In this document: positions 8,824 to 51,049 of the stretch, piece after piece | Numbering within the stretch: position 1 is the stretch's first letter | How the letters are laid out: each line of letters opens with the position of its first letter | Assembly (NCBI RefSeq): GCF_000266885.1 | Contig: NC_018020.1 | Span: 1-64,000, forward strand | DNA length: 64,000 nt | Origin: Turneriella parva DSM 21527 | Lineage (GTDB): Bacteria; Spirochaetota; Leptospiria; Turneriellales; Turneriellaceae | Reading direction: 5' to 3' | Position numbers and translations under genes: made by a program | Notes under the pieces: generated by a model | The model's input: only the letters and a program-made list of their open reading frames with translations | Databases searched by the model: none | Told to the model about the DNA's origin: nothing

Positions 8824-9188
8824 CTAAGTCCGACCACTTCTTTGGTCAAAATGCCAGCTGTTCGCCTGCAGGTCAAATAAAGTGCAAGATCAACGATTCC
8901 GATTCACCTATTTTGTCGGAATTACCAGCTGCGGTATTTCGACAGACGCACTTGAAACGGCCATTACTGTTCGAACGAACCTGTTCCCTGCGAGCCGGCC
9001 GATCGTGCTCGAACATAAATACAAGATGCTGCACGCCGAAATGTATTGGAAGATAATCTTAAGCTTAATATTTAGGCTAAGCAACGCAATCGCGGTGAGT
9101 ATTGCTGTCAGAACCGTCAGCCAAGTCATATCCCGAAACAGCAAGTATTCTTTGTGCGTGCTTAAGACTGAAGGATTTCCAGAGTTTG

Positions 9189-39994: not shown

Positions 39995-40720
39995 ATGGAT
40001 AAATCAAACCACAATCCCGCACGGCCGCGGCACGGCCGAACTTACAACGAAGAATACTTTGCTGTCATAACGACTGAGGAACAGGCTTTTTGGCTAGGCA
40101 TGTTCTACGGTGATGGATTCTTATCACCGAGCAAGAAGACCGTTGGCATATCCTTGGCAGAACAGGATCGGCATCATCTCTGTAAATTGGCGATTACGGT
40201 CGGAGACAAACCAGCGTCGATTCGAACCTATGAGCCCAAGGAAGGTAACTGGCAGGTCCAACGAACGGTTCGGATACTATTTGGTCGGAAGCGCTTTTAT
40301 GAGACATTCGTAGCATTGGGCTACGGCAACCGCAAGGCTGACTATGCTGATTTCCCGTCGATACCTGACCATTTGCTACGGCACTTCATCCGGGGCATGT
40401 TCGATGCTGATGGCTATGTGACTCACTCGCTCTCCCGGGGAAAGTATAAGTCAATAGTCAGGTTCCGATTCTCAATCTCCGTGGCGAATGAATCATTTGC
40501 ACAACGCCTGCGTGACACATTGCAAGCCGCAACGGGCGAATATATCGGCATCAGCCGGGACAAGACTATATGGGCAGTCCGGGCAACTAATCAGAAGGCC
40601 CTCGTTGCCTTGCACCACTATCTCTATGAAGGCGCGACAGTATTCCTGGAACGCAAACGTAAGAAGTTCGATGAAGCGATCTTATGCTCAGCTAATTGCG
40701 CGGCGCAACCGGCAGCGTAA
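39995..40720 (+). CDS. LAGLIDADG homing-endonuclease-like protein
   Basis: This 241-residue protein has two LAGLIDADG helices: FWLGMFYGDG at 32-41 and FIRGMFDADG at 131-140. Each ends in the catalytic acidic residue, giving a monomeric two-motif enzyme. Such enzymes make rare double-strand cuts that drive intron, intein or gene homing. Here it is free-standing; no flanking split gene or intron core is recognised. A domesticated role is possible. Confidence 0.88.
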   Translation: MDKSNHNPARPRHGRTYNEEYFAVITTEEQAFWLGMFYGDGFLSPSKKTVGISLAEQDRHHLCKLAITVGDKPASIRTYEPKEGNWQVQRTVRILFGRKRFYETFVALGYGNRKADYADFPSIPDHLLRHFIRGMFDADGYVTHSLSRGKYKSIVRFRFSISVANESFAQRLRDTLQAATGEYIGISRDKTIWAVRATNQKALVALHHYLYEGATVFLERKRKKFDEAILCSANCAAQPAA

Positions 40721-45485: not shown

Positions 45486-46175
45486 TTACCACTCGACGAT
45501 CTGCCAGTTATTTTCTGCAGCGTGCGCCCTGAGTTTTTTGTCGGGGGTTACACACACCGGCGTGCCGACGGCTTCCATAACAAAGCGGTCAGTGTAGGCA
45601 TCGCCGTAATAATAGCAGTCGGTGATGTTGATGCCTTTATGGGCACAGTAGTCGAGCGCCGAAAGGTGTTTCTGCTCGCCGAAGACATAGGGCCCACCGA
45701 GGCGGCCGTTGAATTCGCCATTTTCGACATCGAGAGGAGTGCAGATTGCCGCGTGCATGCCGAGGTGATCTTTGACGGGCTCGCATACATACCGCGTCGA
45801 TGCCGACAGTATAACAGTCTCTGCACCACGGCTCTTATGGTATTCGACGGCCTCGCGGGCCTGTGGGCGAATCAGATCGCGTATCTTCTGGTCGAAAAGC
45901 TCGCGCGTGACAAATTCCATCTTTTCGGTCTGCCAGCCTTTAAAGCATTTTGCCCAGTTACGGATAAAATCTTCGGTTTCGTCAAAACCCGTCAGATACA
46001 TGAAGAGCGACATGCCCAGAAAACCCATCTGCAGGGGGGAGTAAATCTTGTTCTGAACACAATAATCCCAGAAGACTTTGCCGCTGTTATCAGCGAGCAA
46101 GGTGTCGTCGAGATCAAAAAAAGCAACGTAAGGTACTGTTTCGGGCATGGACAGGACGAGGCCTGTCATCGCCAC
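45486..46175 (-). CDS. HAD-superfamily hydrolase, subfamily IB (SerB-like)
   Basis: This 229-residue protein has motif I FFDLDDTLL (nucleophile and acid Asp), motif II ILSAST, a conserved Lys region (FGEQKHLSALDY) and motif III YYYGDAYTDRFVM. Subfamily IB includes phosphoserine phosphatases and phosphocholine/lipid phosphatases. Substrate uncertain. It lies 17 bases downstream of the PolB gene and may be the end of that operon. Confidence 0.85.
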   Translation of the reverse strand: MAMTGLVLSMPETVPYVAFFDLDDTLLADNSGKVFWDYCVQNKIYSPLQMGFLGMSLFMYLTGFDETEDFIRNWAKCFKGWQTEKMEFVTRELFDQKIRDLIRPQAREAVEYHKSRGAETVILSASTRYVCEPVKDHLGMHAAICTPLDVENGEFNGRLGGPYVFGEQKHLSALDYCAHKGINITDCYYYGDAYTDRFVMEAVGTPVCVTPDKKLRAHAAENNWQIVEW

Positions 46176-46192: not shown

Positions 46193-48523
46193 TTAAGATT
46201 TTGGGTTAAGGTCAAAAATCTCCGGTTGCAGACTCTCTGTGGGTGAGAGTATTTTCTGCGAAATAAACGGGGCAAATATCTCAGCAAACGACTCAAAGAG
46301 CAGCTTCACATAGTAAGCAGCATCGTAGTGCAGATACTCACTGCGACGCTGCTCGGCGATTTCTTCTGCCATGTAGCGCCGCGAAAGATCGCGGTGGTTC
46401 TGCTGCACGACGAAATAGCGTACCTTTTCACCAGGGGCAATGTGCATACCCGCCGCCTGAAGCGAATGCATGCTGAGCGATGTGCCGTTCATCACCTGGT
46501 AGTCTTCGAGCTCGTGGCTTGCGGTGCGCCGCAGCAGCAAGAGCCGCCACGATACCTTCTGAGCCGTGAGCTCTGCGATTCGTTCTTCGTAGAGCTGCTT
46601 TGCCGGCCCATACATCGCCGCCACGTCGGCGGCGGTGAGGCAATCTTTAATGAGCACGAGCAGCTCACGCTGAAAATCGGTGATGTATTGCGGCATATCT
46701 TTTCGGCGAACAGCGATACCGCGCAGCTTAAACTTACCTGTCTGAAAACGCCCCATGTAACGGTTGGCAACGGGCATGCGGCTGTCGGTACGCGAAGGCA
46801 GAAACAGCGCCCATGAGTAGATACCCTCGGTGCTCATCTCAACATCGGTCTCGCGATAGATTTCGGCGCAAAGGCGGTTGATTTCTTCAGCGCTGAAATT
46901 ACTCTCGTTGGGTTTGGCGATGAAGATACAGTCGGTGATCGCATGCACGAGTTCAAAACCATGACGCTCGGCGAGCTGAATCGCCTTTAAGAGTTTATCG
47001 CGCCCGAATGCAGTGACGCTCTCGTGGCTTTCCAGCTTGCCAAACTTGGCATTGCGAAAGCCGAGATAACCAAAGCTGACAACATTCATCCATTTGAGGC
47101 TGTCGGTACGCTGCTCGTAAACAGCGCGCAGCTTCTCGTCAAGCGGCTCTTGCAGCTTCGCCTTGTAATAACGCCGGCGCGACAGAATATGCGCGAGCGC
47201 ATCGGAAACAACGCCGCGCCGCTTGCTGCAGATATGATAACCCGTTTCGGGAACGCGCGGCACGCTGGCATCATCACGGCAGCAGGGGCAATTGATCGTT
47301 TCGGGCGAAATATTATGCCTGTGCATAATCGTCGGATACATCTGCGAAAAATCGAGCTGCGCGACATTGTGCCGCACGACTCCCTTACTGATGTCGGGTT
47401 GGTAGATAAGACTGCCTTTGTCATAAAGCTGCAGTTCGTACCACGTCTTGCGGTTTTCGAGCGCGCTTTTCTGCCACGGAACCAGATAGTTTTTTCTGAT
47501 CGCGACATCGGCTTCCATGTCGGTGAGCGCATTGCCCGTTGAAGCGCGCGCCAGACGCTGCACACCCATGCGGCTGATGCGCGCAAGCTCGATCGTGCCG
47601 GCGAGGTCGGTGTGCTTGAACGTGAATGAGTTGTGCTGGTCGATGTGCCAGCGCCCGTAGAGCGGGTACGAAGCAGATCGGTAGATCCAGCTGCCGTAGG
47701 TGTTGAAGCTCGAACCTTTTTTGCGAATGTTGCGGCTGATCGGCGCTGCGAGATCGCGATCCAGTTCGAGCCGCACCCCGCTCTTCTGCGCTGTTTCGTA
47801 TAAAAACGGCAATATCACCTGGTCGCCGTAAGCAGAAATTATGCAATCGGGATCTTCAGTGCGAATGATTTGGTTGAGCTTGTGGATATAGTCTTCACCA
47901 CGGCGTTCGGCGAGTGTATAGTCTCTATCCTCAATTTTTAAAATTAACGGATTTGCCGCGCTGACACCAAGACGATGGCTGTGTTGAAGCGCCATCTTCA
48001 GAATGCGCAGTGGCGGCAGCTGGTATTCGAGATCGTACGCACTGCCCGAAGTTTCGATTGCAACAAGCCGGTTGCTGCGGCCAGAGAGCTGGGTGCGTAC
48101 CTTCACCGGGGCCAGCGGATAAAGATTGCGCGACGAAAGATAACTCGAAACAGGGTCGAGATCGGAGTGATAGATGTCAAACCGGCCATAGAGCGTGAAG
48201 AGGCGGCGCTTCAGCCCCAGGAGCATGCCGGGGTCAGCAATCTCGACGCGCAGAGCATCGATGGTTCGGTTTTCATAAAAGAGCAGCTTCTTTTCAAGAC
48301 GCGGTGGCGCAGCAAGCGCGCCGGTGGCCGCGAGGCGTGCCACCACCTTGCGATAGATTTCGGTATTGGCGTGCACATAAATAACCGGATAAAAGGTTTC
48401 AGCAACCTGCAGCAGGTGGCGGTCGTCGCTGAGCAACCAAAGGTAAATCTGGTCGCCGACGCTGTAGGCGTCGAACAGATAGCCAGCAAAATGCCAACGC
48501 GCGCTGATGCCGGGTGATGGCAT
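46193..48523 (-). CDS. B-family DNA polymerase with degenerate exonuclease motifs
   Basis: This 776-residue protein has motif A QLDFSQMYPTIM, motif B KWMNVVSFGYLGF and motif C AITDCIFIA, where the usual DTD has become ITD (one Asp kept). In the region where Exo I should read DIE, PPLRILKMALQ has no acidic pair. The Exo II region (DPDCIISAYGDQVILPFL) lacks the usual Asn and Asp. It is therefore probably proofreading-deficient. It ends an operon of small proteins that faces a LexA-like gene, so damage-induced, error-prone synthesis is a reasonable role, but this is inference. Confidence 0.88.
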   Translation of the reverse strand: MPSPGISARWHFAGYLFDAYSVGDQIYLWLLSDDRHLLQVAETFYPVIYVHANTEIYRKVVARLAATGALAAPPRLEKKLLFYENRTIDALRVEIADPGMLLGLKRRLFTLYGRFDIYHSDLDPVSSYLSSRNLYPLAPVKVRTQLSGRSNRLVAIETSGSAYDLEYQLPPLRILKMALQHSHRLGVSAANPLILKIEDRDYTLAERRGEDYIHKLNQIIRTEDPDCIISAYGDQVILPFLYETAQKSGVRLELDRDLAAPISRNIRKKGSSFNTYGSWIYRSASYPLYGRWHIDQHNSFTFKHTDLAGTIELARISRMGVQRLARASTGNALTDMEADVAIRKNYLVPWQKSALENRKTWYELQLYDKGSLIYQPDISKGVVRHNVAQLDFSQMYPTIMHRHNISPETINCPCCRDDASVPRVPETGYHICSKRRGVVSDALAHILSRRRYYKAKLQEPLDEKLRAVYEQRTDSLKWMNVVSFGYLGFRNAKFGKLESHESVTAFGRDKLLKAIQLAERHGFELVHAITDCIFIAKPNESNFSAEEINRLCAEIYRETDVEMSTEGIYSWALFLPSRTDSRMPVANRYMGRFQTGKFKLRGIAVRRKDMPQYITDFQRELLVLIKDCLTAADVAAMYGPAKQLYEERIAELTAQKVSWRLLLLRRTASHELEDYQVMNGTSLSMHSLQAAGMHIAPGEKVRYFVVQQNHRDLSRRYMAEEIAEQRRSEYLHYDAAYYVKLLFESFAEIFAPFISQKILSPTESLQPEIFDLNPKS

Positions 48524-48536
48524 TGAAATGCACGGG

Positions 48537-48980
48537 TCAGGCTGCGAGCGGTGGGTGGTCTTTTTCTTTGGCTTGTGGTCTGAAATTTATGTTTTCTTCA
48601 ACATGGATTCCGGTTTTCGACCATTTTTTGACCTTCATGGAATAGTTATTGAAACCTGTAGTTCGCCCCGGCTCTGCACGACTGAGCATTCGCACGATCA
48701 TGCTATAGACGAGCGACGAGACACTCACGCGCTGTGCCGCAGCCAACGCATGCAACTTATTATACACCTCTACCGGCCAGTAAACCGGCACAATCTCATA
48801 TTTGTCTCTTGCATGATTATAACACCTCGCCCTATCCCGGCATGCTTTACTGCTGAGCGTATCTGCGAGACACGCGTCGAGCGCCCTAAGCCAGGCTTTT
48901 TGCCACACCCCAAACAGGGCAACAAACCCTGCCGGCAGCGACACTGTGGTCTTGATATTATTGCGTTTCCACCCCTGCAT
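48537..48980 (-). CDS. Ribbon-helix-helix-like protein in the PolB operon
   Basis: This 147-residue basic protein has a central stretch YWPVEVYNKLHALAAAQR followed by SVSSLVYSMIVRML, the pattern of a CopG/MetJ ribbon-helix-helix domain (strand, helix, helix). A cysteine-rich segment (CLADTLSSKACRDRARC) precedes it. It overlaps the upstream gene by 23 bases and ends 13 bases before polB. It may be a DNA-binding partner or regulator of the polymerase. Confidence 0.65.
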   Translation of the reverse strand: MQGWKRNNIKTTVSLPAGFVALFGVWQKAWLRALDACLADTLSSKACRDRARCYNHARDKYEIVPVYWPVEVYNKLHALAAAQRVSVSSLVYSMIVRMLSRAEPGRTTGFNNYSMKVKKWSKTGIHVEENINFRPQAKEKDHPPLAA

Positions 48981-49236
48981 ATAGTTCTCCCTGGCTTTTT
49001 ATATTTTTTTTGAGTTCGTTGATTTCGCGCTTGAGCTGCACCAGCATCGCCATGCTCATCGAGTCGAAGGCGTTGGGGTGCTGCGCCATGACACCTGCCT
49101 GCACCTGCATTTTGGCGACGCGCATGAGCTCGTCGAAAGCTTCGCGGTCTTCACGGCGCAGCGTGCGGCGGTAGTTATCGAACCGGTGCATGACCTGTTC
49201 GATGACGAGGGAATAAGGGACGACAGTTCGGCCCAT
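48958..49236 (-). CDS. Small helical protein in the PolB operon
   Basis: MGRTVVPYSLVIEQ starts at ATG 49236; the open frame extends to 49272. The product of about 92 residues is helical with a C-terminal coiled-coil-like stretch (MAMLVQLKREINELKKNI). No domain recognised. It lies one base below the preceding small gene and overlaps the next by 23 bases, so they are translationally coupled. Confidence 0.7.
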   Translation of the reverse strand: MGRTVVPYSLVIEQVMHRFDNYRRTLRREDREAFDELMRVAKMQVQAGVMAQHPNAFDSMSMAMLVQLKREINELKKNIKSQGELYAGVETQ

Positions 49237-49237
49237 A

Positions 49238-49444
49238 TCAGCAAGAGCTCTCGCGCTGCCGCATGCGCGCAAGATATTCGACAGAAAGCGCTCGGTTAAT
49301 GACGTCGTGCGGATTCACCTTGAATGCAAACGAGATCGGCTGTTTGCGGTTTTTATTGAGAGAGTCCCACAGCGAGAGCTTGAGCAGGCGCTGGTGCAGC
49401 TCTTCTGGGCTACTTGTCGCGAGGGAATTTTTCTTCGGTTTCAT
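49238..49444 (-). CDS. 68-residue hypothetical protein in the PolB operon
   Basis: ATG 49444 follows AAGGAG. The basic protein (MKPKKNSLATSSPEELHQRL, then NPHDVINRALSVEYLARMRQ) has no recognised domain. It is the second member of the five-gene operon. Confidence 0.7.
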   Translation of the reverse strand: MKPKKNSLATSSPEELHQRLLKLSLWDSLNKNRKQPISFAFKVNPHDVINRALSVEYLARMRQRESSC

Positions 49445-49504
49445 TTTTTTCTCCTTAAAAGAGTGTGAAAGTTAGTTGTCATGGTTCGACGAGCTCACCA
49501 TGAC

Positions 49505-50254
49505 CTATGAAAAAGCAAACTGCATCTGCGCGGTTTGCCCGGGCAGAGTTGTATTTTTCAGCAGGTGTGCACTGTTGGTACTTTCGCGCATGCGCGCCGA
49601 GCCGGGCAGGCTCAGAATCTCTTTGCTGATTCTGCCATGCGAGCTGTGGCGCAGCCGCCAGGCGTCGGGGGCCCCGGCATTGGTGAGGTTGAAGCTGCTG
49701 CCGGCGACGAGCGGCTTCAGATCGGTAAGAAATGTGCTGAACGCGGGTGCGGCGTATGACGGCCTTTCGACGACGAAGAGCGCCACCCCGCGCTCATGCG
49801 CATTGGCAAAAAACCTCACCAGCTTCTGGATAAGAAACAGCCCCTCATCGAAGGCGACATCGCCGTCAAAAAACTGTTTCGCAGGTGCAAGAATGAAGAC
49901 GACTTCATTTTTTTTCAGTTCTTGCACTGCATCGAGAATCTGGTATGGTGTGAAAGCGCGGGTGATCGTGATGCTGTCAGCGATCGATTCGGGCGAAACC
50001 TGCTGGCGCAGCGCCTCGTCAGAAATAGCATAGGTATTAAAGCGCATCGCACAGTCGATTGTGTGCGTCTTGATGCCCGCGATTGCCATGCGCGTCTGCC
50101 AGACCTGCGTCAGCGGAAAAACAGCCGATGCCCCGGTCAGGTACGCCATCGAGCGGTTGTTGCCCTTGTAGTCCCACAGGCGGTACGCGTTGGCGAGCGT
50201 TAGCTCGTTGTGAGGATTTACCCCGATGCTGAAATTTGTAGCCCTATGAAACAT
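49505..50254 (-). CDS. RecA-fold-like or ImuA-like protein without a clear P-loop, first gene of the PolB operon
   Basis: This 249-residue protein has alternating strand/helix layout with VVFILAPAKQFFDGD and VALFVVERPSYAAP, which read like core strands of a RecA/ImuA-type ATPase. No GxxxxGK[ST] is visible, so it may be non-catalytic. ImuA-like proteins accompany damage-inducible polymerases in many bacteria. The start abuts a palindromic repeat (50256-50376), beyond which lies the LexA-type operator. The family assignment is tentative. Confidence 0.6.
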   Translation of the reverse strand: MFHRATNFSIGVNPHNELTLANAYRLWDYKGNNRSMAYLTGASAVFPLTQVWQTRMAIAGIKTHTIDCAMRFNTYAISDEALRQQVSPESIADSITITRAFTPYQILDAVQELKKNEVVFILAPAKQFFDGDVAFDEGLFLIQKLVRFFANAHERGVALFVVERPSYAAPAFSTFLTDLKPLVAGSSFNLTNAGAPDAWRLRHSSHGRISKEILSLPGSARMRESTNSAHLLKNTTLPGQTAQMQFAFS

Positions 50255-50255
50255 A

Positions 50256-50376
50256 CCTCACCCCCCAACCCCCTCACCGATGACGGAGAGCGAAGGCGCT
50301 CACCTAAAGGAGAGGGGGAGCCCCACCTCTTACCCCTCTCCTTTAGGAGAGGGGTGCGCTCTTGCGCGGGGTGAGG
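50256..50376. repeat. Long palindromic repeat, MITE-like
   Basis: The outer arms CCTCACCCC/GGGGTGAGG enclose a perfect 15-bp inverted repeat CCTAAAGGAGAGGGG/CCCCTCTCCTTTAGG. It lies between the lexA-type operator and the start of the PolB operon and would form a large cruciform or hairpin in that leader. It resembles widely dispersed intergenic repeats. Confidence 0.75.
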
Positions 50377-50400
50377 CAGAATTTACTTTACAGCCACACT

Positions 50401-50448
50401 ATAGAACAAGAATAGAAAAGCAACCAATTTGTTCTATTTTTGTTCTAT
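50401..50448. promoter_or_regulatory. Probable LexA-type operator overlapping the lexA start
   Basis: ATAGAACAAGAATAGAA on the left is mirrored by TTGTTCTATTTTTGTTCTAT on the right, giving four ATAGAAC/GTTCTAT-type half-sites. Within each side they are 11 bp (one helical turn) apart. The last half-site covers the ATG at 50447, so repressor binding would block expression directly. The divergent PolB operon could be controlled from the same site. Confidence 0.65.
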
Positions 50449-51049
50449 GAAAAAACTACATCCCACCCAAAAACAATTGCTCAAGCTACTGACCAAGCTG
50501 TCAGGCGAAGGGTATACAATCCGCGAGCTGCAAGAGAGTCTTGAACTCTCGACGCCGAGCCTTGTCTTCTTTCATCTGCAGCAGCTTGAAAAAAAGGGAT
50601 ATATCGAACGCAACCCGATGAACCCGGCCGACTACCGGGTGAGGCAGCCGCCCGAAGAGTCGGGCCTCTTTCTGGTCAATCTCTATGGCCTCGCGCGCTG
50701 CGGGCCATCGGGCACGTTGCTTTCGGGTGACGTTGAAGAGCGCATCGAGCTACCACCGCAGTTCATGCATGTACACCTGAAATCCCCCTTTTTTGTGCGT
50801 GCCCACGGCGACTCGATGGAGCCCCGCATACACGACGGTGATCTGGTGCTGTTCGAAACGGCAGCCGAGGTACCCGACGGCAGCGTCGTCGCCTGCTCAG
50901 ACAATGGCCGTGCCTACATTAAACGTTTGGTCAGGTCAGGCAAAAAAATTCTTCTTTATTCACTGAACGCCAAATACGAGCCCTTTGCCGCCGACCCGGC
51001 GAGCTTTCGCGTCGAGGGTCTGGCCCAGGCGGTTATCGGGCGCCTGTAA
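50447..51049 (+). CDS. lexA: LexA/UmuD-like repressor
   Basis: ATG 50447 gives 200 residues. The N-terminal winged helix (IRELQESLELSTPSLVFFHL) is followed by a peptidase S24 domain with Ser123 in GDSMEP and Lys159 in AYIKRL. The self-cleavage site is Cys85-Gly86 (ARCGPSG), the Cys-Gly form known in UmuD rather than the Ala-Gly of E. coli LexA. RecA filaments would trigger cleavage and derepression. There is no obvious ribosome-binding site, since the operator occupies that place. Confidence 0.88.
   Translation: MKKLHPTQKQLLKLLTKLSGEGYTIRELQESLELSTPSLVFFHLQQLEKKGYIERNPMNPADYRVRQPPEESGLFLVNLYGLARCGPSGTLLSGDVEERIELPPQFMHVHLKSPFFVRAHGDSMEPRIHDGDLVLFETAAEVPDGSVVACSDNGRAYIKRLVRSGKKILLYSLNAKYEPFAADPASFRVEGLAQAVIGRL

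Follow-up and report, generated by a model that had tools for sequence, protein, structure and literature searches.

Gene arrangement at the polB2-lexA locus

The DNA analyzed here (the window, 64,000 nucleotides) is the beginning of the 4,384,015-bp chromosome of Turneriella parva DSM 21527, whose whole genome amounts to 4.41 Mb. It contains an operon for PolB2, an exonuclease-dead DNA polymerase of family B, and, divergent from it, the gene of the repressor LexA. The operon runs on the minus strand from position 50254 down to 46193 and is composed of five closely packed genes, iRadA, orf68, PPB2, RHH and PolB2, with neighbors that overlap or are separated by 1–60 bp. The lexA gene lies on the plus strand, and the intergenic spacer between iRadA and lexA is 192 bp long. 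The original prediction, made from the sequence of this region, had described a five-gene operon divergent from LexA, and all five minus-strand open reading frames (ORFs) and the plus-strand LexA were present. The region that it delimited is real, but its end coordinate of 50448 cut off LexA, which runs to 51049. In the following, G000 designates the T. parva genome with the window, G001–G006, G014, G015 and G017 are relatives, and labels such as L046, L056 and L117 designate loci. The features of the locus are listed below, with the ratio of nonsynonymous to synonymous substitution rates given as dN/dS.

46193–48523, minus strand: PolB2, exonuclease-dead family-B polymerase, 776 amino acids, motif C ITD (PF00136, E 2.5e-31; archaeal PolB as top PDB profile matches, 1e-73; catalytic columns)
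48537–48980, minus strand: ribbon-helix-helix-like (RHH) protein, 147 amino acids, lineage-specific insert, one of a set of paralogs with ~8 further, diverged copies in the genome (PF07878, E 1.5e-4, under the curated cut-off; dN/dS 0.13)
48958–49236, minus strand: PPB2 (arCOG07300-type), small helical partner, 92 amino acids, MGRT start (invariant in 13/13; 35/35 co-occurrence with PolB2)
49238–49444, minus strand: orf68, small conserved protein of 68 amino acids, in Turneriella-type operons only (present in G001–G003; dN/dS 0.042 versus G003; stop 1 nt from the PPB2 ATG)
49505–50254, minus strand: iRadA, RadA/Rad51-fold protein without Walker A, 249 amino acids (PDB profile and Foldseek matches; C-terminal AQMQFAF, beta-clamp-like)
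50255–50380, minus strand: self-complementary leader insert in the interval between operator and iRadA (fold −80.4 kcal/mol, z −6.0; missing in G002 by alignment)
50402–50419, minus strand: predicted operon-side LexA box, TTTTCTATTCTTGTTCTA (2 mismatches to the lexA-side box; kept in G001–G003)
50430–50447, plus strand: predicted lexA-side LexA box, TGTTCTATTTTTGTTCTA, overlapping the lexA ATG (identical in G001, G002 and G003)
50447–51049, plus strand: LexA repressor, 200 amino acids, the only LexA of the genome (PF00717, 1.1e-20; PF01726, 1.4e-9; TIGR00498, 96 bits)

The locus is a PolB2 mutasome (iRadA-PPB2-PolB2), an archaeal-derived system of a type that has already been described, including the linkage of its operons to lexA (Makarova 2014, PMC4104785). 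The published bacterial gene order iRadA-PPB2-PolB2 (Timinskas 2025, PMC11791011) was found here with two extra genes interspersed.

PolB2 polymerase

A profile of the 19-member PolB2 family had archaeal PolB structures as its best matches in the PDB. Catalytic residues were assigned by comparison with E. coli Pol II, and their conservation was followed over 19 relatives. The Asp of motif A is retained as D391, and D391, K477 and D531 are invariant (19/19). Motif B is partly canonical, with K477 and F484-G485 retained and Val481 at the position equivalent to Asn, so the claim that the polymerase keeps motifs A and B holds for A and only partly for B. Motif C, described earlier as an altered ITD, indeed reads I529-T530-D531 (DTD in Pol II), and its first Asp is replaced by Ile, Leu or Met in all 19 relatives.

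The predicted loss of the exonuclease residues was also borne out. The D/E pair of Exo I is replaced by A178/Q180, and the N/D pair of Exo II by Y232/I237; an acidic pair at the Exo positions is conserved in none of the 19 relatives, and the alignment did not place intact exonuclease acids at any other site of the polymerase. The Tyr-Asp element of Exo III was not recognizable in PolB2, the lone candidate nearby being the invariant D295. Because the acids of Exo I and Exo II are replaced, no relative carries the acidic pair, and Exo III cannot be recognized, PolB2 is exonuclease-dead by sequence. A D(K/R) motif is present ahead of motif A (D368 invariant in 19/19, K369 in 17/19), and in the published work the corresponding D368-K369 motif contacts PPB2 (PMC11791011).

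Partner proteins

The original prediction had recognized a RecA-fold-like protein and the RHH protein among the accessory proteins; PPB2, diagnostically the most telling of the small subunits, was missed. The true start of PPB2 is an internal ATG at 49236 (MGRTVVPYS...), and residues M1-G2-R3-T4, which form the published N-terminal arm of PPB2 (PMC11791011), are invariant in 13/13 sequences. Of the genomes in the class, 35/35 have PPB2 and PolB2 together, and the other 13 lack the two. The dN/dS values of PPB2 and iRadA are 0.022 and 0.067, respectively.

As judged by profile and predicted fold, the 249-residue protein is iRadA, a relative of RadA/Rad51 and not ImuA. In the PDB profile search, archaeal RadA/Rad51 proteins fill the first ten places (E 0.03–0.33), and when the AlphaFold model of iRadA was compared with known structures by Foldseek, all 50 matches listed belonged to the RadA, Rad51 and DMC1 family (E 2.5e-6). 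Kinship with ImuA was rejected on these grounds. A Walker A motif (GxxxxGK[ST]) is present in none of 14 iRadA relatives, and a Pfam scan of 14 iRadA sequences gave nothing coherent. The C-terminus of iRadA reads AQMQFAFS (in G002, SQMEFSFI) and is similar to a beta-clamp motif. In several relatives, a beta-clamp-like motif is located at the C-terminus of PolB2 instead, and such "shuttling" of the clamp motif is known from the literature.

The orf68 gene was found solely in the four Turneriella-type operons. Strong purifying selection on it, together with an end only 1 nt from the ATG of PPB2, marks orf68 as a genuine gene and as a candidate for an additional subunit, and it looks like a lineage-specific part of the mutasome. 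It was rejected as a second PPB2, as it has neither the MGRT start nor any similarity to PPB2; its KLSLW sequence is a lead toward a clamp motif. Evolution of the RHH protein is faster, and G001 has a reduced version of it; it is regarded as an insert and not as a core subunit. Diverged paralogs of this RHH-like family (positions 48537–48980 of the window and ~8 other G000 loci) are distributed genome-wide, with no Pfam family over cut-off.

Predicted LexA operator and regulon

LexA carries a DNA-binding domain (PF01726) and an S24 autocleavage domain (PF00717), both over cut-off. Its gene starts with the ATG at 50447, and an alternative TTG (50429) falls within the operator. The four-half-site operator proposed earlier consists of two inverted 18-bp boxes, one per promoter, at 50402–50419 and 50430–50447. 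Each is a direct repeat GTTC-N7-GTTC, with one degenerate half-site on the operon side. Their occurrence is far above chance, and both are retained in G001, G002 and G003, that is, in four genomes including G000. In G001, the lexA-side spacer is longer by ~250 bp, and the boxes stay with the operon. The spacer between lexA and the operon yielded neither a sigma-70-like promoter nor a terminator. From their sequence, the two boxes are predicted to be bound by LexA.

The regulon was delineated by pattern searches of the genome for the full 18-mer. With up to 2 mismatches to the 18-bp box, three sites were found in 4.4 Mb (0.16 expected). Two of them form the operator in the window, and the sole other one (chromosome 3456286–3456303), with a match of 17/18, is located 20 bp before the gene of a tyrosine recombinase. 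Sites with 3 mismatches occurred at background level. Only the full 18-mer was specific, as a genome-wide scan for GTTCN7GTTC was uninformative (49 and 59 matches versus 65 and 52 for the control). The genome encodes a canonical RecA, and no box was found in the recA and dinB regions. The recombinase homologs in G001 and G002 (42–44% identity) also have a box at their start, which makes three species that keep the box at all of lexA, the operon and the recombinase. Thus, the SOS regulon predicted from these sites, newly defined here, would be very small and would also include a gene-cassette-type recombinase.

A fourth box in G001 (L127, G001:C290:15544-15561) immediately precedes a radical-SAM gene of the PA0069 family. 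No such box was found in G004–G006. In G004 and G006 (L024 and L026), the PolB2 operon instead diverges from another repressor of the S24 (CI/LexA-like) type, which has an SRAP gene beside it, and the spacer of L024 contains AAAGTACAC-N5-GTGTACTTT. A moderate LexA-like site at positions 9009–9026 of the window has no convincing gene behind it.

Comparison with known systems

The Turneriella locus shares with the described PolB2 mutasomes (PMC4104785; PMC11791011) the three subunits and their bacterial order, the dead exonuclease, the xTD form of motif C, the MGRT arm of PPB2, the lexA neighbor, and a clamp-like motif on iRadA rather than PolB2. It differs from them in the presence of orf68 and RHH inside the operon, in the divergent lexA with a mapped, conserved direct-repeat operator, and in the tiny predicted LexA regulon. 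E. coli Pol II is likewise a family-B polymerase under LexA, but it is a single-subunit enzyme with intact DxD and exonuclease and is only 21% identical to the PolB2 of the window. A LexA regulon is also known in a related spirochete, Leptospira (LexA1 box TTTGN5CAAA; PMC3789691); in Turneriella, however, the operator is a GTTC-N7-GTTC direct repeat, and recA and dinB are without a box.

In the PolB2 tree, the window sequence forms a group with G002 and G003, joined next by G014, G015 and G017 from other families, and stands apart from G004 and G006, which are of its genus. The operon has therefore probably moved horizontally. Mobile carriers exist, as relatives are carried by LE1-type Leptospira phages, which have iRadA-PPB2-PolB2-SRAP in one operon (L056 4198-7975; KF114878, KF114879, KF114880, KX656785), and by haloarchaeal plasmids, whose polymerases are 27–33% identical.

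The original prediction saw the locus as a PolB-based counterpart of the ImuA-ImuB-DnaE2 mutasome. The functional analogy stands, since both systems combine an error-prone polymerase with an inactive protein of RecA fold in an SOS-controlled cassette (predicted to be so in Turneriella). Kinship does not, because the Turneriella system has a RadA-type protein instead of ImuA, a family-B polymerase, and neither ImuB nor DnaE2: the genome has no second DnaE, and its single Y-family protein is a DinB-type Pol IV. LexA control and a multi-subunit error-prone polymerase are supported, but the RHH protein is not a core component, and the system already has a name.

Proposed mechanism and alternative explanations

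We consider the operon to be a bacterial PolB2 mutasome under SOS control, with a probability of roughly 0.87. As the operon stands back to back with the only SOS repressor gene of the genome, T. parva probably produces PolB2, as an error-prone repair polymerase, upon DNA damage. This reading builds on the observed gene content, catalytic losses, co-occurrence and operator conservation; LexA binding, induction, complex formation, clamp binding and mutagenesis would proceed as follows. In the undamaged cell, LexA would occupy both inverted boxes and repress its own gene and the operon. Upon DNA damage, RecA would load on single strands and LexA would cleave itself, after which iRadA, PPB2 and PolB2, along with orf68, would be produced together. 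According to published models, a PPB2 trimer and iRadA would dock on PolB2 to form a heteropentamer of one PolB2, one iRadA and three PPB2 subunits, which the C-terminal motif of iRadA would tether to the beta clamp. PolB2 could then extend mismatched or lesion-stalled primer ends without proofreading, with bypass achieved at the cost of mutations.

Several points weigh against this reading. The window LexA, the single TIGR00498 match in the genome, scores 96 bits, under the cut-off of 111. Since recA has no box, the circuit departs from the canonical SOS regulon. The operon-side box is 2 bases off, and the iRadA start lies ~150 bp away behind the strong hairpin insert, which could lower expression. 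The sequence-only match of iRadA to RadA is weak (E 0.03), and the AlphaFold model of iRadA, built from three sequences, is of moderate confidence (predicted local distance difference test score, pLDDT, of 57, with core blocks mostly 70–87). The PolB2 model, built from a four-sequence alignment, had a pLDDT of 43 and was unusable, so it was not used.

Among the alternatives, the best supported, although unlikely, is that the operon came in recently or from a phage and is retained for the replication of phages or plasmids, not for SOS mutagenesis of the host. In its favor are the operons of the LE1-type phages, the tree position of the window PolB2 with other families and apart from G004 and G006, and other loci that face CI/LexA-type repressors and SRAP. 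The phage PolB2s, however, form a separate clade, the Turneriella operon is paired with the only host LexA, the neighborhood of lexA includes the housekeeping gene nuoG in G000, G001 and G002, and nothing like a phage structural gene was noticed in the ORFs around it. The PPB2 of L056 has the MGRT start, and that of KF114878 is largely unannotated. A pattern search of viral contigs for iRadA gave no match, though the phage operon carries a diverged iRadA.

Slightly less probable still is the older view of the family, in which PolB2 has no catalytic activity and plays only a scaffolding or regulatory part at damaged forks. The Ile at the first Asp position of motif C, the dead exonuclease and the dead ATPase of iRadA would fit it, but in Sulfolobus a PolB2 with IID is active, is induced by damage and is required for targeted mutagenesis (reviewed in PMC11791011), and the invariance of D391, K477 and D531 together with a dN/dS of 0.08 for PolB2 also speaks against it. 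It is very improbable that the operon belongs to the ImuA-ImuB-DnaE2 cassettes, or derives directly from one, with PolB as a replacement polymerase, because the analogous logic (LexA, dead RecA-fold protein, polymerase, clamp motif) is outweighed by the lack of ImuB and DnaE2, the RadA/Rad51-like subunit, the presence of PPB2, and an order and gene set that match PolB2 operons.

T. parva is of interest because no bacterial PolB2 mutasome has been experimentally characterized in the cited PolB2 literature. It is probably a cultivable, free-living type strain, has a complete genome with its only LexA adjoining the operon, and has no rival mutagenic mutasome (DinB only). This clean genetic setting would allow the role of an archaeal-derived PolB2 in bacterial SOS mutagenesis to be decided. 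The conserved box defines a concrete, predicted LexA regulon that would tie mutagenesis to a cassette-type recombinase.

Box-linked recombinase

The third box of the genome belongs to the following gene.

G000 chromosome 3455169–3456303 (L046 3667–4804): tyrosine recombinase resembling integron integrases; a box that matches at 17 of 18 positions precedes its start by 20 bp

The protein scores 220.3 (cut-off 220) on a mixed XerA/integron-integrase model. On the integron model TIGR02249, the G000 protein and its homologs score 190, 167 and 160 bits, under the cut-off of 265, and the match splits into two stretches where the IntI-specific internal domain is expected. Adjoining the recombinase is an irregular, cassette-like array of ~19 kb (chromosome ~3456430–3476000, L117), made up of long direct repeats with units of 459 bp among them. 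No strict attC hairpins (RYYYAAC...GTTRRRY) were found in this array, and no long repeats lie alongside the G001 homolog. The label "integron" is not established.

SOS control of the integron recombinase has a known origin in beta/gamma-Proteobacteria. It is conceivable, at somewhat less than even odds, that Turneriella has a reduced regulon in which strong LexA boxes are placed almost only on genome-diversifying functions (the PolB2 mutasome, the integron-integrase-like recombinase and, in one species, the PA0069-type radical-SAM protein), with recA and dinB outside it. SOS control of an integron-type recombinase would then have arisen here separately, and orf68 would be a new, lineage-specific mutasome subunit. 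Cambray et al. 2011 (PMC3108266) reported solely boxes of the E. coli type ahead of intI genes, so control of an integron-type recombinase through a different LexA box would be a novelty.

Neighboring genes

One further gene follows the operon.

45486–46175, minus strand: HAD-IB hydrolase with no inferred role (TIGR01490, 130.6 bits versus a cut-off of 98.3)

It lies 17 bp 3′ of polB2 and is probably co-transcribed with the operon; the hydrolase gene is also found downstream of polB2 in G002, but not in G001. Elsewhere in the window, the ORF at 39995–40720 has weak matches to intein-type regions of the RfcS and ribonucleotide reductase models and is possibly a LAGLIDADG homing endonuclease.

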